This document shows positions 3,874-37,849 of a stretch of 40,561 bases of DNA, piece by piece (positions within the stretch are counted from its first letter, which is position 1; each line of letters starts with the position of its first letter). The notes beneath the pieces are model-generated. The model saw only the letters and a program-made list of their open reading frames with translations. It did not search any database and was not told the origin of the DNA. Source of the stretch: a virus; IMG/VR virus record IMGVR_UViG_3300045741_000179, positions 1 through 40,561 of that record. One strand, written 5' to 3'. A program made the translations under genes and the position numbers.

Positions 3874-4249
3874 CCTTAACTACCTCCTCAGGCAATACCC
3901 AAATATCAGTCTCTGGCTTCGTATCTTTCCACCACTTAAATTGTTCCTTTCTTAAATACTTTCTGTCCTTTATAAGGTTAATACTGTCCTTGTAACCAAA
4001 TATCTCAGGGTCAGACATGCCCCAGAGGACTATTCCTGTCTTTAGCTTGTGATATTGAGCTAAGTGGGGGATAAAAGAATCAATGCTTATCCAAATATCA
4101 CAGTCATTTATCATCTCCTTAATTTTGTCTAAAGGAAGATTTGTCTCTATCTTTATGAGTTCGTGTCCTTTAAGAAGTTCGAATAATTCGGACCAGAAAG
4201 GATAGGACTTAGCGTTTTTTACTTGTCCCTCAAATATTAATATCTTCAT
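3845..4249 (-). CDS. GT9-like glycosyltransferase C-terminal half (heptosyltransferase fold)
   Basis: The 134-aa product begins MKILIFEGQV and contains DCDIWISIDSFIPHLAQYHK and KTGIVLWGMSDPEIFGY. These recall the nucleotide-sugar-binding half of ADP-heptose transferases (C-D-xxI-xxDS-xxxHLA...GxxxVxLFGxT-P). Half a GT-B enzyme would not act alone. The preceding fusion gene ends with what looks like the N-terminal Rossmann half (VVNNGGIGDNYMMLQAIK), and the two genes overlap by 20 bases. The pair may therefore reconstitute one GT9-type enzyme. The start at 4249 is chosen over 4309 to limit overlap. Confidence 0.5.
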   Translation of the reverse strand: MKILIFEGQVKNAKSYPFWSELFELLKGHELIKIETNLPLDKIKEMINDCDIWISIDSFIPHLAQYHKLKTGIVLWGMSDPEIFGYKDSINLIKDRKYLRKEQFKWWKDTKPETDIWVLPEEVVKAIEARFQTQ

Positions 4250-5702
4250 ATAATTTTTTATAAGCCTCAATGAGTGTGCCTTTCCATTTCTTGTGAGCAC
4301 ACCAAGCATATATATTGTGATGTTCGACGTCGCATATCTTCATCGCTTCGGCTATGCTAATAATTTCTACATCCACGTCTTTGTAGACTTCAGGATAAGT
4401 GGTGGCTACAACACATTTTGGAGGTAATTTAATGGCTTGTAGCATCATATAGTTATCTCCAATGCCTCCATTGTTTACTACCAATTTTTTACCAGTTTTC
4501 TGGAAGTCCAGTGTAGCTTTATAGACATCCTCATCATGGTCAAACATCTCAGCTCCTTGGCCACTTCTTATGCCTCCAGAAGCTCTAAAATGCCATGTAA
4601 TAGCCTTTGGGGTTACAACTAGGTCATATCCCTTATCTTTGAGCATTTTAGTGAACATGGTCTCTTCTCGATGGGCCACAGGGCTTAGTCTGAGGTCATA
4701 GTGAGCCACATTTGGCCTATATAAGAATGAAGAATATAAATCTTCTACCTTTTTAGACTCTCCATCCCATTTGTACCATTGTAAATTACCCTCACTGCTT
4801 AATTGAGGTTGAATAACTAATCCTGCTACAGCTCCGACTTTAGGACCCATTTCTTTCAAAAGATTCTCTAAGCAGGTAGCTTCTGGTATTTCATCATCAT
4901 CTACACGCCAACATAAATCATGGTCTAGAGTATTGGCATATTCATGATTGTGGTGTTGTCCTTTTTTTGCACTCCACATAACTTCCCAGCTAATTCCTTT
5001 TTCTTCAAAAAGCTTAAAAATGTACTGGTATGTTTCACTATCTCTTAAATCTCTTGGACTATCATTATCATCAAATAAAATAAATCTTTCAGGTTTAACT
5101 GTTTGCATCGCAATAGCGGTCATGGCCAAAGGGAGGGTAGAGTCATAACGATTCTTTGTAGAAATGTAGGCCAAGATACTGACCATCTTTCTAGACCAGA
5201 TATCACTGACTACTCGTGGTTTAAAATGTTCATCAACAGCCTTAATCACACCTGGCCAATTCGGACTGTAATCATGTCCAGCAATAGTTCCTTTAACTAA
5301 AGGCAACCAATCTTCAATATCTTCTTTGACATCTTCGTAAGTGTGGCCAGCGTCTATAAATAACAAATCAATATCTTGTTGAATACACTTACTAGCTTCG
5401 TGAGTGGTCATCTCATAAGTCATTACATCTAAACCAAATCTTTCTACATTCGCCTGAAAAACTTTATACAAATCATTTTGCTTTGCAAATTTGTGAGCAT
5501 CTCCTTCTGCATCAGTCCCCTTAAAAGTATCTACAGCAATAACTTTTATTTTCTTTTTTAAAATTAAATCGGCCACAGAACAAAGAGAACGGCCTTGCCA
5601 AACACCGAGTTCACATAGAGTACCACCATCAGGAATCTCACTGACTAATCTTCGGTACTCTTTAATATTTTCTTCGGTAAACCAACCGTCTGGCAAAATC
5701 AT
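4230..5702 (-). CDS. Methyltransferase - GT2 glycosyltransferase - GT9-like fusion
   Basis: The 490-aa product seems to join three parts (numbered from the ATG at 5702). Residues about 1-190 are a class I SAM methyltransferase (GTLCELGVWQGRSLCS, IAVDTFKGTDAEG, LLFIDAGHTYEDVKEDIEDW, IAGHDYSPNWPGV), like Methyltransf_24. Residues about 195-395 are a GT2/GT-A transferase (NRYDSTLPLAMTAIAMQT, ILFDDNDSPRD, WRVDDDEIPEATCLENLL with the D-x-D motif). The last 75 residues resemble the N-terminus of GT9 heptosyltransferases. It could modify virion or host surface glycans. A TTG at 5771, overlapping the previous stop with AAGGA upstream, is an alternative start adding 23 residues. Confidence 0.7.
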   Translation of the reverse strand: MILPDGWFTEENIKEYRRLVSEIPDGGTLCELGVWQGRSLCSVADLILKKKIKVIAVDTFKGTDAEGDAHKFAKQNDLYKVFQANVERFGLDVMTYEMTTHEASKCIQQDIDLLFIDAGHTYEDVKEDIEDWLPLVKGTIAGHDYSPNWPGVIKAVDEHFKPRVVSDIWSRKMVSILAYISTKNRYDSTLPLAMTAIAMQTVKPERFILFDDNDSPRDLRDSETYQYIFKLFEEKGISWEVMWSAKKGQHHNHEYANTLDHDLCWRVDDDEIPEATCLENLLKEMGPKVGAVAGLVIQPQLSSEGNLQWYKWDGESKKVEDLYSSFLYRPNVAHYDLRLSPVAHREETMFTKMLKDKGYDLVVTPKAITWHFRASGGIRSGQGAEMFDHDEDVYKATLDFQKTGKKLVVNNGGIGDNYMMLQAIKLPPKCVVATTYPEVYKDVDVEIISIAEAMKICDVEHHNIYAWCAHKKWKGTLIEAYKKLYEDINI

Positions 5703-5767
5703 TAAATAATTGTAACATAAAACAGAGAGGGCGTTCAAGACGTGTCCTCTCCATTCGCTAACAAGGT

Positions 5768-5938
5768 TCAATCTTCATCCTTTTGTTCGTGTAGTTTCTT
5801 GGTCGGTTGTTTATCGTGGAGAAGATAGTAGGTCTTCGCCATGAGTTTACCTGCTTGTGGCAGGTTGAGTTGTTTGCGTACGAACGCAATATACTCATCG
5901 GACTCGATTAGGTCGAGTTCCCACTGTTGGAGTTCCAT
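5768..5938 (-). CDS. 56-aa protein with strong Shine-Dalgarno
   Basis: The ORF (MELQQWELDLIESDEYIAFV...) starts one base after the TGA of the HNH-like gene and is preceded by AAAGGAG-5 nt-ATG. This is a textbook ribosome-binding site, unlike almost every other gene here. Its base use (CTC, GTC, CGC codons) is visibly GC-richer than the flanking genes. The product is helical, with no known domain. Together with 5940..6348 it looks like a recently acquired cassette. Confidence 0.6.
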   Translation of the reverse strand: MELQQWELDLIESDEYIAFVRKQLNLPQAGKLMAKTYYLLHDKQPTKKLHEQKDED

Positions 5939-6454: not shown

Positions 6455-6634
6455 CTAGCCTAAAGGTGCAGATTGAACATCTAGACCTTTTTTTTGAAGA
6501 ATAGCGACTAGGATATTTAGAATCACGCCTACTCCAATTAGGATAAGACCAGTATTCAAATTACCCTGAATCATAACAAGACCAGCTCCCATGAGTGCTG
6601 AACCTGTTCCTGAGATTGTTTGATTATTTTGCAT
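6455..6634 (-). CDS. Holin candidate, 59-aa membrane protein
   Basis: The 59-aa product (MQNNQTISGTGSALMGAGLV then MIQGNLNTGLILIGVGVILN and ILVAILQKK) has two hydrophobic segments, about 9-24 and 28-47, separated by a short polar turn. A charged C-terminus follows. This is the size and topology of class II holins, which open the inner membrane so the endolysin can reach the wall. Its ATG lies inside the last codons of the peptidase/endolysin gene (11-base overlap). Assignment rests on topology and position only. Confidence 0.55.
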   Translation of the reverse strand: MQNNQTISGTGSALMGAGLVMIQGNLNTGLILIGVGVILNILVAILQKKGLDVQSAPLG

Positions 6635-7706
6635 AAATATTATTTAAAACTTTTAATGTCTTTGGACCAACTTTCGACCCTTTCAATACATATCGTTCAT
6701 AAGCTGATAAACTAATATTGTATTTAAGTTGAAAAGCTAAAACTGCGGCTTGGGTAACTGGACCATAGTAACCAGTGATTTGATAGTTATACACTCCTTC
6801 CATTTTCAAGGCTTTCTGTAATGCTTCAACTTCGCTATTTTGGTCTCCAAATTGCATATTGTTTATAAATTCGTACTTGAATACGGCTGGAGTGTTGTGA
6901 GCTTGTTCAAGTAGAGTATTCGGAATATCAGTAAAAGTAATCATCTCGACAATACATTTCTTGTATTGAGAGTATAGGAAGTAACCGTTACCTCTGTCGG
7001 CCCACTTATCCGACCAATGGTTACGGAAAAAGATTTTAGTATCTGTTCCAGTATCTTGATAACCATAGACATATATCTCATGGCCAGATACAACACTAAC
7101 TGGTGGTTGAACTGGTAGAAGTCTATTCTTGTCCCAAGTACTTCCGTTGGAATCAGTCCACCATTCCTTTCCCACTTGAACCAACATTATTAAACCGTTA
7201 CAGTTGAAAATTGCCTGTTTAATTGAATCAATATCATTATTTACAAAGGCGTAACCAGATATTTTAGCTCTAAAAGCTTCGTCCTTTGCACTCTGGGGAA
7301 TATTTGCTTCATTTCTTTGATAAACAAAGTCTTCATGACTTAAAAGAGTATTGTCAGGACAAGTATCAGTTGTTGAACAACCGATATCTTTCAATATCTT
7401 TCCAACTAAACGAGGATAAGTCCCTTGGTCTGGATTTCCGTCCTGACATTTAGCCAAAGAATAGAGGAAGCGATAAGACCAAGGCATCACCATTGTTGAA
7501 TCTACAAAATCAAGTCTTTGTTTATATTTTGCGGCGGCACAACCAACACAGCAACCAATTTGGTTCTGCATCTCTACTGGAAGATTTTCAATATCAATAA
7601 AGAAAGAAGAGGGAACTGCGGTAGGTAATCCCAATTGGCCAATGTAAATATCTCGATGGTCTGGTGGAGATTGTATAGCACCTAGCGTTGGGATTATATT
7701 TTCCAT
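6624..7706 (-). CDS. Papain-like (C1) peptidase with C-terminal peptidoglycan-binding domain; candidate endolysin
   Basis: The 360-aa product has a papain-type catalytic domain at about 1-265. QNQIGCCVGCAAAK near residue 50 supplies the oxyanion Q and nucleophile Cys, VSGHEIYVYGYQ carries the His, and RNHWSDKWADRGNGYF is the Asn-box (usual form N-S-W-G-xx-WG-xx-GY). Residues about 285-355 form a PG_binding_1 module (MQFGDQNSEVEALQKALKM, ITGYYGPVTQAAVLAFQLKY). No signal peptide is seen. Between a small membrane/coiled-coil protein and a holin candidate, it is the best lysin in the genome. A C1 peptidase instead of an amidase or muramidase is unusual; a virion-processing protease is the alternative. 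Confidence 0.75.
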   Translation of the reverse strand: MENIIPTLGAIQSPPDHRDIYIGQLGLPTAVPSSFFIDIENLPVEMQNQIGCCVGCAAAKYKQRLDFVDSTMVMPWSYRFLYSLAKCQDGNPDQGTYPRLVGKILKDIGCSTTDTCPDNTLLSHEDFVYQRNEANIPQSAKDEAFRAKISGYAFVNNDIDSIKQAIFNCNGLIMLVQVGKEWWTDSNGSTWDKNRLLPVQPPVSVVSGHEIYVYGYQDTGTDTKIFFRNHWSDKWADRGNGYFLYSQYKKCIVEMITFTDIPNTLLEQAHNTPAVFKYEFINNMQFGDQNSEVEALQKALKMEGVYNYQITGYYGPVTQAAVLAFQLKYNISLSAYERYVLKGSKVGPKTLKVLNNIYAK

Positions 7707-7707
7707 G

Positions 7708-8007
7708 TTATTTTTTGCTTAAAATAGTTATTAATTGTTTCTGTAGCTCGATTATTTGACTTTCTTGATTCACTTGCTCTACTTTGATGTCTTTTATTCC
7801 CTGAGTTAAATCTTGAATATGTACCTCGTGATTTGTGTTTATATTTGAAATTGACTGTTGAATCAAAGCGATATCGGTTTTCAATCCATTGATAGGTGAA
7901 AAGACTACGCTAATCATCCACATAATTATTCCAGTTCCAGCAATGAAAGATGAAATAGCTAGTTTTGACATTCCTAATATTTTTGTTTCTTCATTTTGAT
8001 TTTCCAT
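7708..8007 (-). CDS. Membrane-anchored coiled-coil protein, XhlA/spanin-like
   Basis: The 99-aa product has a short cytoplasmic N-terminus, one hydrophobic segment at about 17-38 (AISSFIAGTGIIMWMISVVF) and a C-terminal coiled coil with many Q, I and E residues up to ILSKK. This is the architecture of hemolysin XhlA-like or i-spanin-like lysis accessory proteins. It is directly upstream of the peptidase/endolysin gene, 1 base apart. The function is inferred from topology and location. Confidence 0.5.
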   Translation of the reverse strand: MENQNEETKILGMSKLAISSFIAGTGIIMWMISVVFSPINGLKTDIALIQQSISNINTNHEVHIQDLTQGIKDIKVEQVNQESQIIELQKQLITILSKK

Positions 8008-9150: not shown

Positions 9151-11883
9151 TTAGCTTATAGCAGTAATAATACCACATTGAATGGTGATTGAGGTAGGGA
9201 GTGTGTAAGTTCCATCTACTGCTGGTGCAGTTCCGCCCACACAAAGACCACCAGCAAAGTTCCACAATCCTAGTGTTTGGGTATAGCCGTAACTACCATC
9301 TAAGAATACACAGTCGTTCGTTGCAAGTTTTAGAGAACAACTTATATTGCTGTTTATTACTCCACCACAGCCCAGACCACAGAAATCAAATTGAGTATAG
9401 CCGTAGCTACAACCATTTGTAATGCTAAAGATTAAGTCACAGGAGCTTCCACTTAATCCACATTGATAATCTTGCCATGTTATTTGGTCGCCATAAATAC
9501 CGTTATAAATATCAACTCTTGGACAAGAACCGCAACCGAAGTTTATGAATGGAGCACAGCAATCGCTTACTCCGAAGAAAGCACCACAATTAGATATTCC
9601 CCATTCTGAGGTTTGAGAATAAATATTTGTTAGCACAGCTTTCCCATCATTTTGCTTAAAGTCAAAGTTTGAACAGGCATTACCCATTTTGAATGTGCTA
9701 CCATAGCCATAACCAACTTCAAAATTGAAACCACCTCCACAACTACCACCACAGGTATCAGTTGAGTTGAATGTCCAAGCATAACGGTCAGTATATTGGT
9801 CGTTGATTTGTAATTTTTGATTAAATCCACCGAAATCACAACCCAAAAGATTCAAATTTTTACATCCGTCATACTCAAAATAATTCACACTATTGCATTG
9901 GCCACCATCACAGAAACCACCAAAACCATCAGAGTATTGAATAGAATATTGACAACCAGAAGCTGTGCCAGAACCACCACCACCTGTATCCCAAATAGCA
10001 ACACCTGATGTTGCATCGTATTTAATAACTTGGCCGTCAGAAGTTGGGGCACACGCAGGCAAATAATAAGCATGGTTTATTCTGACGTTGTCTGGATGGT
10101 CTGAACACCAATCAATCGCCCATTGGTAGTATGAATTAGCAATACTAAAACTACAACCAAAGCCCATGTTTATACCATCATTATTGTCATCTACTGTTAT
10201 ACAAGAACCACAAGAAGAAATCGTAGCAGAAGAACATGTCATATACATGCACATGTTCGAACCGTAACCCATAGCCCAAACTGCCTGTGGGTTTTCTTGG
10301 TCCCACCATCCAAAGTAAACACGCTCACATGAACAAGAATCACAGAAAGCTAATTGATGTCCGTCAGTATTGTAATCAAGATGTGTAATACATGTGGTGA
10401 GTGGAACACCTAATTCCATAGCAGCACAATAATAGTTGAAATCTAAGCAAGCTCCGAAAGCTCCAGTACCATCTAGATTGAATTGAATATTGTTGCATAC
10501 TCCTGCCGCACTTGCACCACCACCACCAGCCGCCTTTGGATAATAAGTGTTGGTCGAAGAACAGAAAGTTAAAACGTCTCCATCTTGTCGTGGATTATCT
10601 CCTGGTACAGACGTATCAGGTCTTGCCCAAAAATCTATACATACTTGAGGATTAGTACATGTACTATTGTAATAGCTATCACAAGTGCTAAAGAATCCTG
10701 TACAAACATCATCTTGACCCCAACAAGTTAATGTGCAGTATGTATTGTTATATAATTCGTAAGAAACGTCATTACAATTTTGAATTAAACGGACACTTCT
10801 ATCGTGAATAACTTCTCCATCATTGAAGACCTTTGGCGAAAGATATGGTAGACAGTCTGACGGTGTATCACAATTGTCCCAGAAATTAGAGCCAGAAGTG
10901 TTTGGTGCGGCATAATAATTACCAAAAGAATCACGAACTAAAACGTCTCCAGCAGAAGGACCTGTTCCATCAGAATGATACCCAGGATATAAACAAGAAG
11001 GAACATTATTACAACCATCCAAAATTTCTAAACCGTATTTACCATTAGAGTCAAATGCCGAGCAAAGTTGAGTAACGCAGTTTGAACCTAGTCCTAAGGT
11101 TGTAAGACACTCCAAGCAGTATAGGCAAGCATCCTCTGTAGCTGTCCAAGGAGTCTGTCCTGTTATATCAGATAACATCGCAAAAGTTCCATCCTTGTCT
11201 GGGAAAGAAAAAAATCTAGCTGTTGTGATTAGAGAGTTGTCAAATAATGCTGGGTTATCATGATTAGCGGTATAGATACCAACATGGCCATCTAAACCAC
11301 TTCCATTACCTTTACCTGGGGCTAATTGTACATAACCTCCGTCCGTATCAACAGTCGAAGAATCACAAGCAAAAATATCAATATATCCAGCATCTCCAGT
11401 TGATTCGATTGTCAAGGTTCCGTCAGTGGTTATAGTGGGAGAATTAACTTCTATTGCTGAAATAGTTCCTACGTTGTCAATATCTTGAGCTGTGGCATCA
11501 TTTCCAATTGTCAGAACTTGAGATAGATTTTGAGTACCAGAACCATTAATTCCAGAGAATCCACTAAAACCTGAGTAGCCTGAGATGCCGTCTTGTCCTG
11601 AATAGCCAGAGTAACCAGAGACACCATCAGTACCGCTATAACCAGAATAACCAGATGCTCCGTTGGAACCATTTGTACCTGAATAACCACTGTAGCCACT
11701 GTAGCCAGAATAGCCTGAGTAGCCACTAATGCCACTACCACCACTACCTCCTCCTCCAGTAACTAAAAGTCTGTGTGTAATAGGGTCAGCATAAACCAAA
11801 GTAGGAGTTACACCATCACCTGATGAAACCGCTATTAAGGTTGATACTCCATTTTCGTCTTTTTTTGCATTTTCCGTTGCCAT
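9151..11883 (-). CDS. Cysteine-rich collagen-like fibre protein
   Basis: The 910-aa protein starts with an adaptor module (ENGVSTLIAVSSGDGVTPTL...DPITHRLLV). About 70 residues of GYSG/GFSG collagen-like repeats follow (roughly 45-115), then typical fibre segments (FPDKDGTFAMLSDITG, NNIQFNLDGTGAFGA). The rest is packed with about 54 cysteines, an exceptional content, often spaced 3-20 residues apart (CGGSCGGG, CGSC, DCC). The C-terminus (APAVDGTYTLPTSITIQCG) resembles phage tail-fibre ends. It is likely a receptor-binding or surface fibre; the cysteines may form disulfides outside the cell. The paralogue at 19490..20881 has none. Confidence 0.7.
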   Translation of the reverse strand: MATENAKKDENGVSTLIAVSSGDGVTPTLVYADPITHRLLVTGGGGSGGSGISGYSGYSGYSGYSGYSGTNGSNGASGYSGYSGTDGVSGYSGYSGQDGISGYSGFSGFSGINGSGTQNLSQVLTIGNDATAQDIDNVGTISAIEVNSPTITTDGTLTIESTGDAGYIDIFACDSSTVDTDGGYVQLAPGKGNGSGLDGHVGIYTANHDNPALFDNSLITTARFFSFPDKDGTFAMLSDITGQTPWTATEDACLYCLECLTTLGLGSNCVTQLCSAFDSNGKYGLEILDGCNNVPSCLYPGYHSDGTGPSAGDVLVRDSFGNYYAAPNTSGSNFWDNCDTPSDCLPYLSPKVFNDGEVIHDRSVRLIQNCNDVSYELYNNTYCTLTCWGQDDVCTGFFSTCDSYYNSTCTNPQVCIDFWARPDTSVPGDNPRQDGDVLTFCSSTNTYYPKAAGGGGASAAGVCNNIQFNLDGTGAFGACLDFNYYCAAMELGVPLTTCITHLDYNTDGHQLAFCDSCSCERVYFGWWDQENPQAVWAMGYGSNMCMYMTCSSATISSCGSCITVDDNNDGINMGFGCSFSIANSYYQWAIDWCSDHPDNVRINHAYYLPACAPTSDGQVIKYDATSGVAIWDTGGGGSGTASGCQYSIQYSDGFGGFCDGGQCNSVNYFEYDGCKNLNLLGCDFGGFNQKLQINDQYTDRYAWTFNSTDTCGGSCGGGFNFEVGYGYGSTFKMGNACSNFDFKQNDGKAVLTNIYSQTSEWGISNCGAFFGVSDCCAPFINFGCGSCPRVDIYNGIYGDQITWQDYQCGLSGSSCDLIFSITNGCSYGYTQFDFCGLGCGGVINSNISCSLKLATNDCVFLDGSYGYTQTLGLWNFAGGLCVGGTAPAVDGTYTLPTSITIQCGIITAIS

Positions 11884-12190: not shown

Positions 12191-12298
12191 TATACTATGA
12201 CTATTCTTATCGGCTTCGTGATTATCTATCTCATCTTTTCCTACCTCTGTAAACTTTTTTTTGGTGAGCATTTTAGTCATTCTGAAATTGATAACCAT
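12182..12298 (-). CDS. Possible 38-aa peptide
   Basis: The ATG at 12298 overlaps the stop of the upstream gene (TAATG), a classic reinitiation arrangement. It encodes MVINFRMTKMLTKKKFTEVG followed by an acidic/His tail, and its TAA lies just before the adaptor gene leader. No homology is recognised. A rightward 36-aa hydrophobic ORF (12197..12307) covers the same bases; the coupled leftward frame is favoured. Confidence 0.4.
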   Translation of the reverse strand: MVINFRMTKMLTKKKFTEVGKDEIDNHEADKNSHSISI

Positions 12299-14076
12299 TA
12301 TTTCTGATTAGCTTTTTGAGCCAATGCTCCAATTGCTCCTTTAACCACTCTCTTTCCTGTACCTTTTAGTGGTTTTTTTCCTACTTCCTTGCTTGTTCTA
12401 TCTAAAATACCTTTCGAGACTCCTGCCAATTTTTTACCTACAAACCCACCGCCTTCTCGACCTATATAAGCTCCAGCCAGAGGAATACCAGTTGCGTTTC
12501 CAAGCATTTCACCTCCAACTGTGGCTGTATCTTTTATCAATCCACCAACTAGACCTGTTTTAACTGGTTTTCCTTCGATATGGTCCAGCATGTCCTGAGC
12601 CTTGATAAGTCTGGCCATTTTTGCGTTTATAGCGTTGACATCAGGCAATCCCAAGGCCTTTGCTCCTTCTTCAACACTCTTCTGTAGGGCACTTCGAACA
12701 ACTTTATCTGTACTATAAGTAGGAGAATTAAATCCAGCCTCACTAATGTTCCGAGAAACAATTCTTTTGGCTTCATTCATCTGTTTAAGAGATGGATAAT
12801 CACCATATTTAGCTTTTAACCTTTCGAAATATTTTTCTATTGGTGCTGGGTCTTTTAATTGTTCTATCGCATCACTAACTGCTTGCTTTTTATAATCTTC
12901 AAGAGGTATTCTATCTGCAATTCTAGAAGTATTGGCCTTGTCCAAAGCTGGCTGTAATTCGTTATCTTCTATATGAGAAATTTGTTCGCTAAGTTTAGAT
13001 GAGGCCTCTTTGGTTGTATATTTACCACCTTCGATATCAGGGATGGCACGTTCGTCAATCAAAGTTTTTATTTCATCAGCTCCACCTCTTTCTAGAGCCT
13101 TTCTACCTCCAACTGTTCTAGAAACAGTGGCCGTTAAGTCTTTTGTAGCCGCTTTTTCCGCAACATTTTTTAGAGCTAAACTAGCACCGTCAAGAGCCAA
13201 GTTTTTAACCACGCCTAGACCTTTTAGAATAGGAATTGCTGTAATAATATTAAATCCAGCCTCAATATCTTTTGATAATTCAGGGTGGTCCTGTCCAAAT
13301 TTTTGTAATGAACTAATAATAGATTTTCCTGTGTCAGTTTGAGCTAAAGAGCTTATTCCACTACCAATTACTCCTTCTATAGCCTTCACGCCTGGGATTA
13401 GTTCAAGTCCTTTGTTAACAACATCCCCTATACCACCAGCGATAGCACCAGCAGTTTGAAGTACTCCAGAAACAGGGTTTATTTTGCCTGAAATGGTGTC
13501 TGAAATAGCGGTTGAGGCATCATTCACTCTTCCACCCAATTGACCCCCCAAGCTCGAATCTGGGGCTTTTGTAGTGTCTGTAGCACCTGAAGTATTTATA
13601 GTGAATGGACTACCTCCTCCAGTTGGTTGAGAAAAAGGTTTTGGATTATAAGTTGGACTCTGTGAACTTCCTTGTTGTTTCATTTGTTGATATTGAGTAG
13701 CAACATTTCTCGCATAGGTGGCTGTATCATAAGAAACACCATGTTCATTGATTCCCTTATTACCTTCGATATATGCATTTGGTTTGCCTTGGCCTGCGTT
13801 CCACATAGAGGCAATTTCGCCTATATTATGGCCAGAGTCCTTCCATTTTTTAATTCTGGTGTAGGCAACTTGATTCTGTTCTTCAGGTGTAGCCTCGGAC
13901 AAAGATTTATTGACTCCTGCTTCTTTAGCGTAATTATTCCAAGTTGGTTCTGTAAATTGGTATGCACCATACTCACCAGATTTTCCTTTCGCTTGAAAAT
14001 TACCACCACTCTCTGTTTGGCGAATGGCCTTAGCTAAGTTTACTGCATCAGGGTCTAATTGTGTTTGGTCTTGCAT
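12298..14076 (-). CDS. Virion protein with N-terminal lytic transglycosylase-like domain
   Basis: The 592-aa product opens with a lysozyme/transglycosylase-like domain at about 8-135: IRQTESGGNFQAKGKSGEYG places the catalytic Glu, then AYQFTEPTWNNYAKEAG and IASMWNAGQGKPNAY. A proline/glycine-rich linker follows, then a hydrophobic region (VLQTAGAIAGGIGDVVNKGL, NIITAIPILKGLGVVKNLAL), a helical part and a basic end with glycine-rich stretches. This is typical of internal or ejection proteins of short-tailed phages that open the wall during DNA entry. It lies among tail genes, not with the lysis cassette. Confidence 0.72.
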   Translation of the reverse strand: MQDQTQLDPDAVNLAKAIRQTESGGNFQAKGKSGEYGAYQFTEPTWNNYAKEAGVNKSLSEATPEEQNQVAYTRIKKWKDSGHNIGEIASMWNAGQGKPNAYIEGNKGINEHGVSYDTATYARNVATQYQQMKQQGSSQSPTYNPKPFSQPTGGGSPFTINTSGATDTTKAPDSSLGGQLGGRVNDASTAISDTISGKINPVSGVLQTAGAIAGGIGDVVNKGLELIPGVKAIEGVIGSGISSLAQTDTGKSIISSLQKFGQDHPELSKDIEAGFNIITAIPILKGLGVVKNLALDGASLALKNVAEKAATKDLTATVSRTVGGRKALERGGADEIKTLIDERAIPDIEGGKYTTKEASSKLSEQISHIEDNELQPALDKANTSRIADRIPLEDYKKQAVSDAIEQLKDPAPIEKYFERLKAKYGDYPSLKQMNEAKRIVSRNISEAGFNSPTYSTDKVVRSALQKSVEEGAKALGLPDVNAINAKMARLIKAQDMLDHIEGKPVKTGLVGGLIKDTATVGGEMLGNATGIPLAGAYIGREGGGFVGKKLAGVSKGILDRTSKEVGKKPLKGTGKRVVKGAIGALAQKANQK

Positions 14077-19489: not shown

Positions 19490-20881
19490 TTAAGCTGTTG
19501 CCTCCCATAATATTTGAGCTGTTGTATCAGAAGATAAGCTACCTGTCTTTGTCCAAACTAAAGTAATATTTGTAGCGTCAAAAGTAGCAACTGCAACTTG
19601 ACTTCCTCCAGCATCGGCAAAGACTATTGCATTTGTTGTGTCAGAATTAGTCGTATGGCTTGTACCAGATGTAGAGCCATAATAATAAACGGTGTTAGTA
19701 TTTGTTCCATTGTATGTGCCAGTAGAACCACCGATAATGTTTGTGGAAGAGTTCACTAAAGTAAACTTCGCTAATTTTGGCGTTTTACCTAGGCCATGAG
19801 CAATAGTTACAGTGTTACTTGCAGTACCTGGATTACGACTGGTAATACCTTGTGTAAATGAATTCAAATCACTTGTCAAAGCCAGAGTTCCAGTTGTGTT
19901 TGGAAAAGTAAAAGTTTTATTAGAAGAAGCAATTTGGTTTAGTTCGAGTGAAGCGTAATAAGTCGCTGAATTTGATTTCTTTAGTATTAAAGAACCTTCT
20001 GACCCAGAACCAGTTTTGTCTCCAGGAGATAAGATTACAGAACCTCCATTAGAGTTTCCAGATGTAGCATTTCCACCATAGACTACTGCACCACCACCAG
20101 CACCACTTGTTGCACCGCCAGGACCACCATATACTCCTGCCGCACCTCCTATTCCTGTTGCTCCTGCCGCACCTCCAGCCACATAAGCCTGACCTCCGTT
20201 ACCTGAACCTAAGCCAGCACCACCATAATTATAAGCATCTCCACCGTTAGCATTGTTAGAAGAAGTATTTCCACCTTTTAGTTGGATACTGGTAGAAGTT
20301 GAAGCTGATGGAGTGGTAATAACAACGGCATTACCTGAAATATCACCTACTGTAATTGCACTATCCTGAATTATTTTACCAGTTGTATTATCATATCTTG
20401 CTATAGCATTGTCAGTTGCACTAGCAGGTCCTGTAACATCACCTGTACCGCTAGAGCCTGAGAATCCAGAGATACCAGAGTAACCTGAGTAACCAGAGAA
20501 TCCACTTGTACCTATAGAACCTACAGCACCAGAATAGCCTGAGAATCCAGAGATACCACTAAAGCCACTGTAGCCTGAAAAGCCAGAAGCTCCTGGGTTA
20601 GCACCTGAATAACCAGATGTACCTGAATAACCACTGATACCTGAATAGCCACTAAAACCTGAAATACCTTGTGGACCAGTTCCAGAATAACCAGAAAAGC
20701 CACTATAACCACTAATGCCACTAAAACCTGAGTAGCCTGAGATGCCTGATGCTCCTGGGGCACTGTCAGTAATTAAACGGTGTGTAATAGGGTCAGCATA
20801 TAAAGTAACTATTGTGCCATCGCCTGTGTTAGATAAGGCGGTAAGGGAGGCTCTCGAATTTTGGTCTATTCCTGCGTTCAT
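19490..20881 (-). CDS. Collagen-like fibre protein (cysteine-free paralogue)
   Basis: The 463-aa product has the adaptor module at its N-terminus (DQNSRASLTALSNTGDGTIV...DPITHRLITD). About 110 residues of GYSG/GFSG collagen-like repeats follow, then a fibre segment (AIARYDNTTGKIIQDSAITV), a glycine-rich stretch (GGDAYNYGGAGLGSGNGGQA) and a C-terminal beta domain (FTFPNTTGTLALTSDLN, IAHGLGKTPKLAKFTLVN). It contains no cysteine. Collagen-like trimers are common in environmental phage fibres. Paired with 20884..21162, it repeats the layout of the 9.15-12.17 kb cassette. Confidence 0.7.
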   Translation of the reverse strand: MNAGIDQNSRASLTALSNTGDGTIVTLYADPITHRLITDSAPGASGISGYSGFSGISGYSGFSGYSGTGPQGISGFSGYSGISGYSGTSGYSGANPGASGFSGYSGFSGISGFSGYSGAVGSIGTSGFSGYSGYSGISGFSGSSGTGDVTGPASATDNAIARYDNTTGKIIQDSAITVGDISGNAVVITTPSASTSTSIQLKGGNTSSNNANGGDAYNYGGAGLGSGNGGQAYVAGGAAGATGIGGAAGVYGGPGGATSGAGGGAVVYGGNATSGNSNGGSVILSPGDKTGSGSEGSLILKKSNSATYYASLELNQIASSNKTFTFPNTTGTLALTSDLNSFTQGITSRNPGTASNTVTIAHGLGKTPKLAKFTLVNSSTNIIGGSTGTYNGTNTNTVYYYGSTSGTSHTTNSDTTNAIVFADAGGSQVAVATFDATNITLVWTKTGSLSSDTTAQILWEATA

Positions 20882-25789: not shown

Positions 25790-26101
25790 TTATTTATTGT
25801 AGTTACTTGTTCCTTGTTCTCTCATTATTTTTGAATGTTGCTTCGATGTAACTGTTTTTCTTGGTAAGTTATCTTTCATTCCCTCTAAGGCTTTGGATTT
25901 AGCAGTTAATTTCTTAATACCTGCTTTACTTCCATGATAAGAAGTTTTTTTGCTTCCCACATCTTCAACACTGTAAGCAAAATCTTTGTGAGCTTTTTTT
26001 CCTAATTGTACTTTTAACATTTTATTTGGTATTTTAATTTTATAATCTCTTTCTATTTTTTCCTTTCGTAATCTAGGATATTCTTTTGCAAAGTCTTTCA
26101 T
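25790..26101 (-). CDS. Small basic protein, 103 aa
   Basis: The product (MKDFAKEYPRLRKEKIERDY, KIKIPNKMLKVQLGKKAHKD) is highly basic, with GSKAGIKKLTAKSKALEGMK toward the C-terminus. It shares one base with the end of the portal gene (TAATG arrangement at 26101). Function unknown. With its two neighbours it forms a run of lysine-rich small proteins between portal and scaffold genes, possibly capsid DNA-binding or portal-associated. Confidence 0.6.
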   Translation of the reverse strand: MKDFAKEYPRLRKEKIERDYKIKIPNKMLKVQLGKKAHKDFAYSVEDVGSKKTSYHGSKAGIKKLTAKSKALEGMKDNLPRKTVTSKQHSKIMREQGTSNYNK

Positions 26102-27912
26102 TATTTTGGTAGAGGTACTTGGCTAAGTGATGCGTTCGCTGGTCCTGCTCCTAAACTTGGTGGTGGACTTCCTGGTAATTCTCCTGGCTGTCCTCCGACC
26201 TGTGGATTAGCACTATCAGGAGCTGGTTGAGATTCTGGGAAGAATGTTTGCATATAAAGTTGTGGATTAGTTACCCACATAGCTACTTGTTTAGCTGTCT
26301 CCATTGGGTCTGCATAATTCAATTTTTTAAATAGAGTGATTGGGTCCAAAGCTTTCTGTTGCCATAATTCAATAGCCATGTTCTGCTCTGTAATCTCGTC
26401 CTTTGGTTGCATTGAGTTAGGAGAGACAGAGACAACGAAACGGCGAGTCAAATCGCTATTAACGATTGAGACATATTCAACGGCTCGGCCACTTCCCATG
26501 ACTGCACCGTAGTGAGGGACATCATAGAACACACAGTAAAGTTGTAACCACCAGTTAAAGATGTTATCAGCGACTTGTTCAAGAGCATCACCAATACCAC
26601 CACCGATACGGCTAGAGTCATGGCTTTGATTCAAAATCATGCCACGAGCAGTAGTATCTTCATTCTGAGGTTGAGCAGTTAGGCCTTGAGTACCAAAGAC
26701 AGTTCGAAGAGTGTCTTTATCAATTTGTTGTGCATCCAAGATTCCAGCAGGTAGTGGAGAAGCAGGTAGTCTTTGAATACCAGCATTGATGTCCGCAGGA
26801 GCTAGAATAGGGTCGCCATCTTCAACGGCTTGTGCGGCCTCACGAGCATTTTCAGAAGTCCAACCATGCAATTGAGACAACACCAAAGAGTTATTGGCAG
26901 TCTTCAAGTTACGGCTAATCTGGTCATCTCGGTCAGTAATACGGTCCTGATTTGGAATACTTTGTTCGATTAAGTTAGTAACGTCATGTGGTCTTTCTTG
27001 TAGGGAGAATACAGATAGGAAAGTATAAGGCATCTTTGGTGTAGCAAAGTGGTTAATGCCTGGGGTCGCTGTCTCGCCTTCTACTGGCTTAGCTTCGTAG
27101 TTGAAGTATTCATTCTTGTGTTTATCTAAAACAACATCAGCAAAAGTAGTGAAACAATAATCATCATTCCACCATTCAGTGCGGACACAATTTGTACCTA
27201 GTTTGCCATCAACTTTAATGAAGATGTAATCTTTATGTTTAGGAAATAGTTCGATAAGTTTCTCGGCTGAACACTCGATTCTTTCACCTAAGAATTGACC
27301 AACGAAATCTCCGTACTCATTAACATATCCATCTGGGTCAAAGACAAAGTTTTGTGGCTTGCGTAAATCAAGAGTAATATCTTTAATCTTTTCATTCCAA
27401 CCATGCTTAATGACACCAGTAAAATAAATAGACCAGTGGCGAACCATCACTCCTAATTTCTTTCTTAGACACAAAACATCAGCATGGTACTGAAGCATTG
27501 TCTTAATATCATTTGAGGCTGACTTACCTTCATCAGTATTGTCGCTCCACACAACTGGTTCAGGATTCTTTGAAAGAGCTTGAGGGATAAATGTTTCCTC
27601 TGCTTCGAAGATTAAGTTAGAAGCAATTACCGCTTCTCCATTCCCTGGTGTATTGCGTTGCTTACCGACATAGTAGAGTTTGTTTTTTTCTTGGCGTGGT
27701 TTTATCTTTGGATAGTAACCATTGTGTTTAGATTCATATTCCTCTTTGAGGTTTAACAATTCCTCATCATTCATCGGAAGGTCAAGAACATCTATCTCTT
27801 CACCTTCTGGACCTTCTTGCATTGTAGCGTTCTCATTGGTTTTGTTTATACCACTGGAAATAAGATTCTCAACACCTAAAATATTTACTGCAAATGGGTC
27901 TTGGTCTGGCAT
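26101..27912 (-). CDS. Portal protein
   Basis: The 603-aa product has portal features: N-terminal VIASNLIFEAEETFIPQALS, wing region (VMVRHWSIYFTGVIKHGWNE, DLRKPQNFVFDPDGYVNEYG), SIPNQDRITDRDDQISRNLK, and a C-terminal helical crown with IELWQQKALDPITLFKKLNY before a proline-rich tail. Portals form the dodecameric DNA gate. It is the first gene after a strong promoter and precedes the head genes. The tail PPPSLGAGPANASLSQVPLPK is low-complexity and may be disordered. Confidence 0.8.
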   Translation of the reverse strand: MPDQDPFAVNILGVENLISSGINKTNENATMQEGPEGEEIDVLDLPMNDEELLNLKEEYESKHNGYYPKIKPRQEKNKLYYVGKQRNTPGNGEAVIASNLIFEAEETFIPQALSKNPEPVVWSDNTDEGKSASNDIKTMLQYHADVLCLRKKLGVMVRHWSIYFTGVIKHGWNEKIKDITLDLRKPQNFVFDPDGYVNEYGDFVGQFLGERIECSAEKLIELFPKHKDYIFIKVDGKLGTNCVRTEWWNDDYCFTTFADVVLDKHKNEYFNYEAKPVEGETATPGINHFATPKMPYTFLSVFSLQERPHDVTNLIEQSIPNQDRITDRDDQISRNLKTANNSLVLSQLHGWTSENAREAAQAVEDGDPILAPADINAGIQRLPASPLPAGILDAQQIDKDTLRTVFGTQGLTAQPQNEDTTARGMILNQSHDSSRIGGGIGDALEQVADNIFNWWLQLYCVFYDVPHYGAVMGSGRAVEYVSIVNSDLTRRFVVSVSPNSMQPKDEITEQNMAIELWQQKALDPITLFKKLNYADPMETAKQVAMWVTNPQLYMQTFFPESQPAPDSANPQVGGQPGELPGSPPPSLGAGPANASLSQVPLPK

Positions 27913-28402: not shown

Positions 28403-30055
28403 TTAGAAATCTACCTTAACTCCGAGCCTCCTTCCAGTTATTGTACCATCTTTCATTGTGCCTGTCTGGACTCCTCGCATTGAGTTATCATTCTTGACCA
28501 CAATAGCCAAGTCATTACCGAACTTGTCCATACCAATCAAGGCATAGATACCAGAGAAGAAGAAGTGGTCTGGTCCTTTACGCATCCATACCCATCGCCA
28601 ACCGTATGTCGGTTCATTCTCGTCAGTCAACTCCCTGACACGATAGATATTCAAAGCATGGTTGAACCAAGGTTGCCAATCCTCTACTGAGCCGTTAATC
28701 GTGAAACGTCCCTCGTTTAATTGGTCTACGGCAAGTTGGACCACTCTATTTCTATCCACCATAACCTTGCCCATCTCTTCATTCTCTCCCCATCGAATAA
28801 GCTGTTGAGTCCTAGTCTCTTTGGTAAACCAACACAGAAAGACTCGGCCAACATACTTAGCTTGAAGCTTTCGAACACCAATCAAATCTCCTCCTTGGTC
28901 GGCTATCAGGACTGAATTAGGATATTCCTTGAGCCTAGCCTCTATCTCGTCATAAGGGTCGTAATTAGGCGTTGCTCCACCATCCTCAAGTACTGACTTG
29001 CAGTAGCCATGATAGAACATGCCTTGCTTGTTCATCATTGTATAGTGAAGGTTATGGCCAGTATCTAGACCGATAACAACTCGGCCTTCTTGCGTATTCA
29101 CTAAGCTAGTTAGGTTCTTCAGTAGGATAGATTGTGAAAGCATGTTGTTAGCGTTCACATAAGGTAGACCAGCCACGAAGTTAGCGAAGTACTCAGGAGT
29201 CTTGTTTCGCTTATAGACGGCAATCTTCTTAGCCGAGAACATAGGGTTTATCCACAATGGAATCCAATAGCCTGACCATTTCTCATCGCCTTCAGGGATA
29301 ACACGAGTAGGCATCCACTCGCCCATTCTACGCTCCTCATCCATTACCTCACCTTGACAATGAGGACATTTATATATCTCATTCGTGTAATCAATACAGG
29401 ACTCATCGAATAGAAAGGTCTTGCCACAAGCGTGTTTCACATGCCACTTCTTCTGGTCGCTTATCTTGTAGAACTTATCTATGCCCACATCAGGAAAGGA
29501 TGGGTTGCTGAAATAGGCCTTACGAGGATGTAAAGCGTGCTGTAGACGAGAATCATACTGCTCAACGATAGAAGGCTTGCATCTATCATACTCATCCACA
29601 ATTAGCTTACTGGCCGAAATCATCAAGGCTGTTCTCTCGGTCCATGAACCTTTGTAGTAAATGGTTGCCTTACCCACTCGCTTCTGCTCAATGCTATCTT
29701 TATCCTCCACCCATTTTTGTAGGCATGGGTTGTTATCAATCATACGGTTCACCTTACCGCCTGAGAACTGCTTTACGTCATCTGCTGTGGGTAGAACGTA
29801 AATGATGTCTATAGAGTCATTTTTAGCCTCGTGGAGAGACTTTATAATTTCGTATGTCGTGAATCCAATCTGTGCGGCCTTCATCGAGCACATGAAAGCA
29901 GAGTCATCAGCATAGATAGCTTCAAGAAACCTATGGGTATGGAAATCCAATGGTTGTCCTGATTCAGTTTTGATTTGATGTTTCTCAATCCAGTCTAAAA
30001 CATTCAGCTCTCTAGCTAAATCAATCTCTTCTGCTGTGTATTCCTCTAAGTTCAT
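28403..30055 (-). CDS. Terminase large subunit
   Basis: The 550-aa product carries an ATPase domain with a deviant Walker A (MKAAQIGFTTYEI), the Walker B region LIVDEYDRCKPS, and a zinc ribbon with CxxC (HACGKTFLFDESC, YKCPHCQGEV). A nuclease domain holds aspartates in VVIGLDTGHN and VLIADQGGDLIG. The layout and the zinc ribbon match lambda gpA-type terminases. It packs concatemeric DNA into heads through the portal. Its start overlaps the small-subunit gene by 35 bases. Confidence 0.88.
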   Translation of the reverse strand: MNLEEYTAEEIDLARELNVLDWIEKHQIKTESGQPLDFHTHRFLEAIYADDSAFMCSMKAAQIGFTTYEIIKSLHEAKNDSIDIIYVLPTADDVKQFSGGKVNRMIDNNPCLQKWVEDKDSIEQKRVGKATIYYKGSWTERTALMISASKLIVDEYDRCKPSIVEQYDSRLQHALHPRKAYFSNPSFPDVGIDKFYKISDQKKWHVKHACGKTFLFDESCIDYTNEIYKCPHCQGEVMDEERRMGEWMPTRVIPEGDEKWSGYWIPLWINPMFSAKKIAVYKRNKTPEYFANFVAGLPYVNANNMLSQSILLKNLTSLVNTQEGRVVIGLDTGHNLHYTMMNKQGMFYHGYCKSVLEDGGATPNYDPYDEIEARLKEYPNSVLIADQGGDLIGVRKLQAKYVGRVFLCWFTKETRTQQLIRWGENEEMGKVMVDRNRVVQLAVDQLNEGRFTINGSVEDWQPWFNHALNIYRVRELTDENEPTYGWRWVWMRKGPDHFFFSGIYALIGMDKFGNDLAIVVKNDNSMRGVQTGTMKDGTITGRRLGVKVDF

Positions 30056-31479: not shown

Positions 31480-32994
31480 TTAGAATCTCATTTTACTTTT
31501 TACTAAGGCTTCTTGGGCTAATTGCTCTGGAGTCTTTGGTGGTAGAGTGATGACAATACCAGTGGTAAGGACAGTTGAGGCTAGAGAGACAGCATTTCTA
31601 ACGGCATTTTTGATAACAGTGGTAGCATCTATAACCTCTTCTCCCCAAGGAACGGCGGCAAATTCTGGTAAGTTCATGTTTTTAAGGTTCTGGATTATCG
31701 GAGCAAGAATAGATTCTTTTAGAATATTGGCTACTTGCGTATCAGGTAATACTTTACTAGCCTTCACTAGGGCCAATCCTCCCCCCTCTACAACTCCATC
31801 TTTAAGAGCTAGACGTGAAGAATTGATAGCGTCATAACACTTTAAGCGTAAATGACTTAATTCACTCTCGTTGTTTGCTCCTAACTTTAGGATTGCTGTC
31901 TTTGTTGTCAACCAACTTAACCTAAGCTTACTGTCATTGGTTCCCTCGGCTTTTAGAGAGGCGATGTGTTCAGAAATGTCTTGTCCCCCAATGATAATTG
32001 TCTCGTCTTTATCTACTGTAATTTTATCACAAGTACCTAGGTGAGCCAATTGCAAATTCTTGTAGTTTATACCAGACGCATCCTCTACAATTGTTGCTCC
32101 AGTTATCTTAGCAAAGTCTTCAAATACATAGTTCTTCCATAGCACAGGTGCTCGAATGATAAGGATTTTAGTAACCTTTGCCTGATGAGTAGCTACCATT
32201 CTAGAGGCAACACCTGAATCCATATCATCTGTGAAGATAACTAATGGCTTATTGTTAGCGGTTGCTATATCCATCAAAGCCTCCAAATCTTTATCCTTCT
32301 CAATCTTACGCTTAGTAACTAGAATTAGTGGTTTTTCGTAGACCGCTTTCGTCTCTTTTTTACCATCTTTGACTGCTTGTTCGTCATAGACCATGTAAGG
32401 AGAGAGATACCCTGCGTCAGAGAATCTAGTTCCTTCAATAACTGTGAACGAAGTTGTATATGTTCCGCTAGCCTCTGGGATAATAATGCCATCAGGGCCG
32501 ATGAGCCGATAGATTTCCCCAAGAGTTTTTCCAAGACTTTTTGATTCTCCTGCAATTGAAGCAACTTTTTCGATTTCCTCAACTGTGATTGTTTTCTTTT
32601 GTTCATCTAAGTTTTTTTCGATTAGAGGGATAAGACTATCTAGTTCTTCCTTGAATTGGTTGCCAGACAGATTCGCCTCGTAAGCTCTTGTAAGTAGCTC
32701 TTCAGCTATGATACAGGTAGTTTTACGGCCATCTCCTGAATCATTATTAGCCTTTTCAGATAGTTCTTTCAAAAAAGAAAGGCCCTGTTTTTCAACAGCA
32801 CCTTCTACTTGAATAGCTTGAATAATAGTCTGAGCGTCATTAGCAACCTCATGAAAAGGCGTAGACTCATTTTCTACCACAGCATTTAACCCTTTTGGTC
32901 CGTAACATAGACGAATAGCCTGAGTAGCTACCTTGATGCCATCAAGCATCCTACCAAATGATTCTTTTCCGATTGTTGTATTACTTATTGGCAT
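31480..32994 (-). CDS. groEL: Divergent GroEL-like chaperonin
   Basis: The 504-aa product shows chaperonin hallmarks: IRLCYGPKGLNAV (nucleotide loop), GDGRKTTCIIAEELL (group I form is DGTTT), YDAINSSRLALKDGVVEGGG with the conserved Asp and GGG, and an apical region (GTRFSDAGYLSPYMVYDE, PLILVTKRKI). It is about 45 residues shorter than E. coli GroEL, mainly near the C-terminal equatorial part, and lacks a GGM tail. The residue at the E. coli D52 position appears to be Glu. It forms a presumed ring with the phage GroES-like protein to fold capsid or other phage proteins. Confidence 0.85.
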   Translation of the reverse strand: MPISNTTIGKESFGRMLDGIKVATQAIRLCYGPKGLNAVVENESTPFHEVANDAQTIIQAIQVEGAVEKQGLSFLKELSEKANNDSGDGRKTTCIIAEELLTRAYEANLSGNQFKEELDSLIPLIEKNLDEQKKTITVEEIEKVASIAGESKSLGKTLGEIYRLIGPDGIIIPEASGTYTTSFTVIEGTRFSDAGYLSPYMVYDEQAVKDGKKETKAVYEKPLILVTKRKIEKDKDLEALMDIATANNKPLVIFTDDMDSGVASRMVATHQAKVTKILIIRAPVLWKNYVFEDFAKITGATIVEDASGINYKNLQLAHLGTCDKITVDKDETIIIGGQDISEHIASLKAEGTNDSKLRLSWLTTKTAILKLGANNESELSHLRLKCYDAINSSRLALKDGVVEGGGLALVKASKVLPDTQVANILKESILAPIIQNLKNMNLPEFAAVPWGEEVIDATTVIKNAVRNAVSLASTVLTTGIVITLPPKTPEQLAQEALVKSKMRF

Positions 32995-33253
32995 ATTTAA
33001 AATTTGGATATTCGTGTTGAAACAGAGGATGTTGTGGCATTAACGCTTGTCTGGCATGAGAGGCTAAATACGAGTGATTATTTATTCTTCCTTCAACTAC
33101 TTTGATAAACTTTCTTTTTCCACAGATTACGCAACATTCCATTTGTCCTTCTTCAAATCCTTCTTGTATTTCGAAGCGATGAAGATAGCCGTTACGACAG
33201 TAGGACTCCGAGAATAAACTCTCCGCTTTCTGGGATGAAGTAGTGCTTTTCAT
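32981..33253 (-). CDS. Small CxxC protein overlapping groES
   Basis: The 90-aa product has NGYLHRFEIQEGFEEGQMEC then CVICGKRKFIKVVEGRIN, with a pair of CxxC-like cysteines followed by K-F. The pattern E-xF-xxGQ-xxxC-x-xCG-xRKF is recurrent in environmental phages and may be a zinc ribbon. Its 5' end overlaps groES by 62 bases, and it ends overlapping the chaperonin start by 14 bases. The overlap is unusually long, and the Met at about residue 38 (MECCVICGKRK) is an alternative start. Confidence 0.6.
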   Translation of the reverse strand: MKSTTSSQKAESLFSESYCRNGYLHRFEIQEGFEEGQMECCVICGKRKFIKVVEGRINNHSYLASHARQALMPQHPLFQHEYPNFKYANK

Positions 33254-33443
33254 TTTCTATTTCTAAACTATTTACTCCCCAAACGGTGTAACCGATGGTG
33301 TCGCCGACCTTTATTTTTGTAACTTCATCACCGATAGCAATAACAGTACCGTACTCACATAAACTTGGTTGTGATGAAACCAAGATTTGCTTCTTCTCTA
33401 TTGGTTTAACCAATATATTTTTTCCGAAAGGTTTAATCTCCAT
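33192..33443 (-). CDS. groES: GroES-like co-chaperonin
   Basis: The 83-aa product (MEIKPFGKNILVKPIEKKQI, then LVSSQPSLCEYGTVIAIGDE, VTKIKVGDTIGYTVWGVNSL) matches the GroES barrel: P-xxxxIL-VKP, G-xVIAIG, VGD-x-I. The mobile loop that contacts GroEL is short but retains an I-L-V triplet where GroES has IVL. It ends with GEFILGVLLS. Its gene precedes groEL with one small gene between. Length is close to the usual 95 residues. Confidence 0.85.
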   Translation of the reverse strand: MEIKPFGKNILVKPIEKKQILVSSQPSLCEYGTVIAIGDEVTKIKVGDTIGYTVWGVNSLEIENEKHYFIPESGEFILGVLLS

Positions 33444-37060: not shown

Positions 37061-37849
37061 TTATTTTGTGATAAACATAGCCTCTAGACCACAGTAGGAA
37101 ACGCACGCATGGCCATCCCACGCCTTTATTTTCTGTAATGCGACATAATCCGCACCTCCCTGTGAATTAATCGCCTGAGCCTGAATTTTGATTGCTTCAG
37201 CCTGTGCCTGAGCAGTGGCGACTGTCTGTTCTGCCTCAAATTTCACTTGTTCAAGCTTATTCTTTGCGGCGAGAGCATTTTGTTCAGCCGTAACCTTTGC
37301 TTCAATTGCTGTGTTGAATGATTGGGAGAAATCAAAGTTGATAATTGAAACCGAGCTAACTGTAATATCATTCAAAGCTAATTTCTCGCTTAAAGAAGTT
37401 TGAATCTTGTCTGTTACCTCTGGTCTCTTGGTAATCAATTGCTCTGCGGTATATTGGGCCGTAATTGCCTTAACTACCTCCTGAATTGCTGGGTCAATGA
37501 TACGAGCTTTGTATTCTGTACCAACTCTTGTAAACAAATCTGAAGCCTTGTTTGCATCAATGTTGTAATTGATAGCTACTTTAGCCTGAACTGTCTGTAA
37601 GTCGTTTGAGGCTGCGGTAGCGTCAGTTTGCTCCTTTTGAGTTTGGACATCCATGCTTTCTACATGTTGAAAGAAAGGCATTTTGAAGTAAAAGCCTGGT
37701 TGAACTGTACCAGTAACCTTACTCAAGGTTGTCTTAATACCAACTTCGCCAGTTGAAACTGTACCCATTGAACCGCCCAAAAGAATAAGAACTACTAAAA
37801 CTACAATGCACCATCCGATTATTTTGAACCAATTAGTTTGCTTTTCCAT
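37061..37849 (-). CDS. SPFH/prohibitin-family membrane protein
   Basis: The 262-aa product has a signal-anchor at about 8-28 (KIIGWCIVVLVVLILLGGSM), then STGEVGIKTTLSKVTGTVQP and GFYFKMPFFQHVESMDVQTQ, and the PHB-domain core (VAINYNIDANKASDLFTRVG, IDPAIQEVVKAITAQYTAEQ). A coiled-coil stretch with AAKNKLEQVKFEAEQTVATA follows. SPFH proteins form ring-like scaffolds on membranes and regulate FtsH-type proteases. In a phage this could protect phage proteins or organise infection at the membrane. The size is close to cellular prohibitin (about 280 aa). Confidence 0.85.
   Translation of the reverse strand: MEKQTNWFKIIGWCIVVLVVLILLGGSMGTVSTGEVGIKTTLSKVTGTVQPGFYFKMPFFQHVESMDVQTQKEQTDATAASNDLQTVQAKVAINYNIDANKASDLFTRVGTEYKARIIDPAIQEVVKAITAQYTAEQLITKRPEVTDKIQTSLSEKLALNDITVSSVSIINFDFSQSFNTAIEAKVTAEQNALAAKNKLEQVKFEAEQTVATAQAQAEAIKIQAQAINSQGGADYVALQKIKAWDGHACVSYCGLEAMFITK

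Follow-up and report, generated by a model that had tools for sequence, protein, structure and literature searches.

NlpC/P60, CHAP and C71 are papain-superfamily lineages that cut wall peptides (PMC10318531). In the C1A family, Cwp84 of Clostridioides difficile is a peptidase with cell-wall-binding modules that processes the S-layer protein (PMC5842191). A related C1 domain is found in a phage lysis module, that of the Thermoanaerobacterium phage THSA-485A, where the C1 gene Tsac_2838 lies directly after Tsac_2839, the gene for a GH25 and peptidoglycan-binding endolysin. None of the papers in the literature searched describes a C1A peptidase as a phage lysis enzyme, and the papain-like amidase of Bacillus tyroviruses was set aside as a precedent, being a permuted, tail-module enzyme. 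To our knowledge, no C1A peptidase has been shown to cut peptidoglycan, and viral exit from Patescibacteria, a very large and mostly uncultured bacterial group, is poorly described. Here we describe a virus gene whose product joins a predicted C1A domain to a peptidoglycan-binding domain, and weigh what that protein may do.

The gene and its neighbours

The DNA that we analysed, hereafter the window, comprises the 40,561 bases of a virus record, whose minus strand carries terminase, portal-type, capsid-type, tail and fibre genes (Table 1). The C1 gene comes after the fibre genes, with its ATG start at 7706 and its TAA stop at 6626-6624. An earlier sequence-only reading had given its coordinates, strand and length exactly, and the three motifs quoted there were found in the protein, starting at residues 47, 206 and 228.

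Table 1. Positions of the window features discussed in the text
Feature	Position	Strand	Basis or remark
Terminase	28403-30055	-	
Portal-type gene	26101-27912	-	
Protein of 592 aa with N-terminal transglycosylase (SLT) domain	12298..14076	-	Pfam 5.5e-8 / 6.9e-7
ORF of 99 aa, N-terminal TM segment and coiled-coil-like tail	7708..8007	-	Hydropathy
C1A papain-type peptidase with PG_binding_1, probable lysis-cassette enzyme	6624..7706	-	360 aa; Pfam, fold
Papain-type domain, residues ~9-262	6921..7682	-	Predicted fold and invariant residues
Gln47	7566-7568	-	Papain-type active-site position
Cys53	7548-7550	-	Papain-type active-site position
His209	7080-7082	-	Papain-type active-site position
Asn229	7020-7022	-	Papain-type active-site position
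PG_binding_1 region, residues ~285-360	6627..6854	-	Pfam and alignment
ORF of 59 aa with strong TM segment, holin candidate	6455..6634	-	Hydropathy; 11-nt overlap with the C1 stop

The gene is closely flanked by two small ORFs. Upstream, the 99-aa TM/coil ORF ends one base before the C1 start codon, and downstream the 59-aa TM ORF overlaps the C1 stop, which is the placement between a membrane/coiled-coil protein and a holin candidate that had been read from the letters. The small TM ORFs, among them the 59-aa ORF of the window, match no curated holin family, and the term holin is therefore inferred for them. No convincing family was found for the 99-aa ORF either; on hydropathy it is a possible holin- or spanin-like partner. 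Strong TM segments are uncommon among such genes: of 81 small ORFs across five related phage stretches, only 7 passed the TM threshold. Neither a signal nor a hydrophobic segment is present in the C1 protein itself (best 19-residue mean hydropathy of 1.0), as expected for a holin-dependent enzyme and in keeping with a canonical cytosolic endolysin.

No lysin family was recognised among 39 other ORFs of the window, in agreement with the lysin position previously ascribed to the C1 gene. The only other wall-enzyme domain recognised was the SLT domain of the 592-aa protein, a structural-type ORF outside the lysis cassette that is probably virion-associated.

The window encodes several further recognisable proteins on the minus strand. 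Fibre-like proteins with SGYSG collagen-type repeats are found at 9151-11883 and 19490-20881, the C-terminal part of the former being strikingly Cys-rich. A single ORF at 4230-5771 combines a methyltransferase (Methyltransf_24, 1.6e-15) with a weak glycosyltransferase-2-like region. An SPFH/Band_7 membrane protein is encoded at 37061-37849 (E 1.4e-31), and an RtcB-type RNA ligase, possibly for the repair of cut tRNA, at 34501-35688 (Pfam E 1.3e-120).

A papain-type domain joined to a wall-binding domain

Searching the 360-aa protein against Pfam at E values up to 10 returned only Peptidase_C1 and PG_binding_1, and no CHAP, NlpC, Amidase or C71 match. Peptidase_C1 (PF00112) covered residues 116-255 with an E value of 1.2e-4 and 22.6 bits (curated cut-off, 20.7 bits), and PG_binding_1 (PF01471) covered residues 290-331 with an E value of 2.6e-8 and 34.4 bits (curated cut-off, 23 bits). 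The C1 peptidase and the PG_binding_1 domain following it, both proposed from the sequence, are thus matched above their cut-offs. The PG_binding_1 region of the window protein aligns with those of four homologues (G1056, G213, G229 and G976) up to residue 355.

The full-length AlphaFold model of the protein was poor (pLDDT 51), and a model of the C1 domain alone, built from an eight-row alignment, was used in its place. This model had a pLDDT of 86 and a pTM of 0.87, with a central helix (residues 53-70) that begins at Cys53. Its best match in the PDB was xylellain (3OIS; Foldseek E 4.7e-14), on which it superposed with a Z-score of 28.2 and an rmsd of 2.8 over 246 residues at 20% identity. 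The next matches were cathepsins, papain precursors and the mite protein Der p 1, and comparison with Cwp84 gave a Z-score of 20.3. The predicted two-domain papain fold, with the oxyanion Gln47 and the catalytic Cys53, His209 and Asn229 in place, indicates that the ORF holds a papain-type C1A domain; a comparison of the predicted structure with papain was the check that had been proposed, and it returned a C1 fold with a papain active site.

Gln47, Cys53, His209, Asn229, Trp231, Trp235 and Gly239 are invariant in five C1 domains, the window's and four others that are 26-40% identical to it. When this set was extended to eight with two distant phage-type copies and one copy lacking a wall module, the Gln, Cys and His were invariant in all eight, and the catalytic Cys is therefore taken to be the second Cys of the GCC pair, Cys53. 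The catalytic Asn is replaced by Gly in G976 and by Ser in G118; the window, G1056, G213, G169, G229 and G157 retain all three triad residues. A tree of the C1 domains grouped the window with G213 and G229 (95/91) and gave no resolved grouping for the rest.

An amidase in the corresponding slot of a relative

The 39.7 kb relative G001 resembles the window in its terminase (51%) and portal (43%), and the two share capsid, GroEL-like and GroES-like genes as well as the SLT protein. In the region of G001 that corresponds to the C1 gene, downstream of the SLT gene, an Amidase_2 enzyme is encoded (E 1e-19), with a 74-aa TM ORF lying no more than a few hundred bases further on; the SLT homologue adjoins this amidase cassette. 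With Amidase_2 in G001 and C1A in the window, the lysis slot thus seems to be filled by unrelated enzymes in related phages. Neither C1 nor PG_binding_1 turned up when the terminase relatives were searched for these families.

The GroEL-like (Cpn60, 2.2e-29) and GroES-like (Cpn10, 1.1e-6) genes of the window lie near its terminase (31480-33443, minus strand). Both are kept in G001 and G005, and the GroEL-like gene also in G004.

Homologues in lysis-like cassettes

Single-sequence scans of IMG/VR and of a GTDB genome set with the window protein gave no useful relatives, nor did A1 and A2, two-row alignments used as queries. On the genomes, A2 gave only L015, a match in a small-genome MAG that provided the phylum for the genome search. 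The matched protein (L015, 2789-4783) is a 664-aa solute-binding-type protein with PG_binding_1 in its middle. Two of the three contigs from a pattern scan of IMG/VR were chance matches. A homologue that spans the full length with both domains is encoded on the virus contig G1056, at 54% identity and with a Peptidase_C1 score of 25.0 bits in Pfam; no clear small TM gene adjoins this copy.

Of 380 genomes from a single bacterial phylum, 4 contained long C1 homologues. Two more, G976 and G905, came from a larger sample of one class; G905 has neither a wall module nor phage neighbours, and a further, more diverged copy was found in G118 of the same phylum. Phage terminase, portal or tape-measure genes are present in G213, G169, G229 and G157. 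The G169 contig runs on into an integrase gene and then transketolase and PfkB genes, and the G157 contig into genes for an M1 peptidase, SecD and an MraY-type protein, so both look like integrated prophages.

The homologues in G213, G169, G229, G157 and G118 are found in lysis-like cassettes where the tail module ends, each with a small TM/coil ORF directly before the C1 gene; that of G976 sits in a similar small cassette. Small TM ORFs follow the C1 gene in G213, G169, G229 and G976, and one gene further on in G118. The C-terminal module varies: it is PG_binding_1 in G213, G229 and G976, DUF5675 in G169 and Peptidase_M23 in G157, and none was recognised in G118. The recurrence of the same C1A arrangement in viruses of apparent Patescibacteria points to a type of exit enzyme not yet described.

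Candidates for a second wall hydrolase were found downstream of the C1 gene in several cassettes. The CHAP candidate of G118 is above the cut-off (2.1e-7), while the CHAP-like candidate of G157 (1.5e-4) and the glucosaminidase-like candidate of G169 (0.0019) are below it. In G213 and G976 the downstream membrane-anchored ORFs look lysozyme-like by eye only and have no family match. Near the C1 gene of the window and of G229, no second wall hydrolase was recognised.

A prophage ORF in a lysis position (L021, 1501-2952) fuses two peptidase classes, C1A (7.5e-10) and M23 (2.6e-16). Phage ctPCi537 (L003 1-2419, MW202577) shows the same gene layout, with a TM/coil ORF, a PG_binding_1-ended protein, a TM ORF and an anchored lysozyme-like ORF; the N-terminal half of its PG_binding_1-ended protein had no Pfam C1 match, and profile comparison with C1 gave a probability of 2%. 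Four other candidates were rejected. The best-scored named phage, AmM-1, has only the PG_binding_1 part in common with the window protein, its own protein being a muramidase, and MT835836 likewise matched through the wall-binding domain only. The gut match MT835662 is a 1239-aa surface-type protein and not a lysin, and the C1 gene of FLC9 stands without recognisable lysis neighbours.

Host

Genomes of the phylum that holds the C1 homologues measure 0.5-2.0 Mb, and the T4SS_pilin family, which we take to be common in Patescibacteria, is present in 26 of the 29 sampled. From these two properties we infer that the phylum is Patescibacteria. The G213 phage contig also holds relatives of the window's RecT (53%) and YqaJ (46%). 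A Shine-Dalgarno-like start motif precedes 2 of 43 window genes (5%), and the start regions are A-rich; relatives and the prophage contigs are alike in this. Shine-Dalgarno-like starts make up 2-15% in G213, G169, G157 and G229, and 69% in THSA-485A. Start sites with few Shine-Dalgarno motifs also fit other groups, for example Bacteroidota. The window portal was not found in the 380 genomes, in a search run without a positive control, so the link to the host draws on the lysis gene, the RecT and YqaJ relatives and the style of the start sites. As sequence evidence, the nearest C1-PG_binding_1 genes, RecT/YqaJ and the start sites would fit a patescibacterial host. This link is indirect, and the unusual host envelope that had been proposed is speculation.

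Proposed role and alternatives

We consider it likely that the C1A-PG_binding_1 protein is a modular lysis-cassette enzyme. In the timing, export and docking that we propose, the signal-less protein would wait in the cytosol until late in infection and exit through a holin-made lesion, the candidate holin being the 59-aa ORF, perhaps together with the 99-aa TM/coil protein. It would then dock on peptidoglycan through PG_binding_1, and its Cys53-His209-Asn229 papain centre would hydrolyse envelope peptide bonds, allowing progeny to escape. The fold, the active-site residues, the wall-binding domain, the gene position and the conservation with exchangeable C-terminal modules were all computed here. 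We favour a role in lysis because the gene is tightly packed with two small TM ORFs of a kind rare among small ORFs, because Amidase_2 fills the corresponding region of G001 and the window has no other recognised lysin family, because the homologues sit in lysis-like cassettes with swapped wall modules, and because the related C1 gene of THSA-485A comes after an annotated endolysin. Against it count the hydropathy-based assignment of the holin and TM/coil roles, the second wall-hydrolase candidates, the G1056 copy with no clear TM gene beside it, and the Asn lost in two relatives. The suggestion that this phage may lyse its host with a C1-type peptidase is strengthened by the papain fold, the wall-binding domain, the lysis position and the amidase in the relative's slot, and it keeps its "may".

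Within the lysis role, two targets have to be weighed. The C1A domain could have replaced an amidase and cut the stem or cross-link peptides of peptidoglycan: no cassette lysin besides it was recognised in the window, it sits where G001 has Amidase_2, it is fused to PG_binding_1, and the papain-superfamily NlpC/P60, CHAP and C71 enzymes do cut wall peptides (PMC10318531). We find this version doubtful, as the fold is a full-size C1A fold and not of the compact wall-peptidase type, and a peptidoglycan-cutting C1A domain would be redundant in relatives fused to M23 or beside CHAP or GH25 enzymes. These same features speak for a protease that is docked on the wall and, at exit, cleaves proteins of the surface layer or attached to the wall, with the peptidoglycan being opened by a different enzyme such as the SLT protein or a lysin that went unrecognised; this we regard as a serious contender, if short of probable. 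Wall hydrolases stand beside C1 in THSA-485A (GH25) and G118 (CHAP), weaker candidates in G157 and G169, and M23 is fused to C1 in G157; with such a candidate next to C1 in several cassettes, C1 could be a helper protease. Cwp84, which matches the predicted fold, offers a precedent in S-layer processing (PMC5842191), and SLH proteins are known from a patescibacterium (PMC13059738). The cassettes of the window and G229, in which no second hydrolase was recognised, argue the other way. For the family as a whole we lean slightly towards protein over stem peptides as the target; judged on the window genome by itself, the two targets come out roughly level, since its lysis cassette has no other recognised wall hydrolase.

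A role outside lysis, either intracellular processing of phage or host proteins or virion-borne action at entry, would be in keeping with the use of proteases by phages in head maturation, with C1 genes outside lysis modules such as that of FLC9, and with the position of the window gene after the fibre genes. We judge it unlikely given the wall-binding domain, the coupling to a TM ORF and the repeated placement in lysis-like cassettes with swapped wall modules. The loss of the third catalytic residue in G976 and G118 could also point to a catalytically dead papain fold serving in binding or regulation only, but the Gln, Cys and His invariant in 8 of 8 C1 domains and the full triad of the window and five homologues make this highly improbable.

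Taking the lysis role as the preferred reading, we tentatively raise the possibility that viruses of Patescibacteria use an undescribed lysis strategy in which the core enzyme, a papain-type protease docked on the wall and fitted with exchangeable wall modules at its C terminus, acts on a protein-based outer envelope or on the wall peptides themselves. If true, a recurrent cassette based on a protease, and not on a glycosidase or amidase, would show what limits exit, for example a protein surface layer, and would extend the known lysis enzymes by one catalytic family. At only 360 residues, the window enzyme is directly testable.

Comparison with known systems

The window protein resembles xylellain, a C1A peptidase of Xylella fastidiosa, in fold over nearly the whole domain. 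Xylellain, however, is a cellular protease, and the 3OIS entry has no wall-binding domain or lysis context. Cwp84 shares the combination of a C1A peptidase with cell-wall-binding modules, but it is cellular, carries a propeptide and CWB2-type wall domains, and acts in S-layer biogenesis. CHAP and NlpC/P60 endolysins and the C71 pseudomurein endoisopeptidases PeiW and PeiP have papain-superfamily catalysis and a wall-targeting role in common with the window protein, although they belong to different families.

Among phages, the lysis module of THSA-485A encodes a C1 domain related to the window's (profile E 7.7e-18). There, in contrast to the window, the protease and the wall-binding lysin are separate genes, and GH25 is presumably what cuts the wall. 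In a comparison with predicted viral structures, A0A6J5MXS7 of an uncultured Caudovirales phage ranked first, with 29% identity over 361 columns spanning the whole query; it differs in its length of 484 aa and is annotated solely by its wall-binding domain, as "Peptidoglycan binding-like". Since it matches along the whole query, the architecture is already in public databases, unexplained. The C1A lysis-cassette arrangement is apparently not described in the literature searched, and we regard the window enzyme as a variant within the modular lysis enzymes of phages and not as a new type of system.
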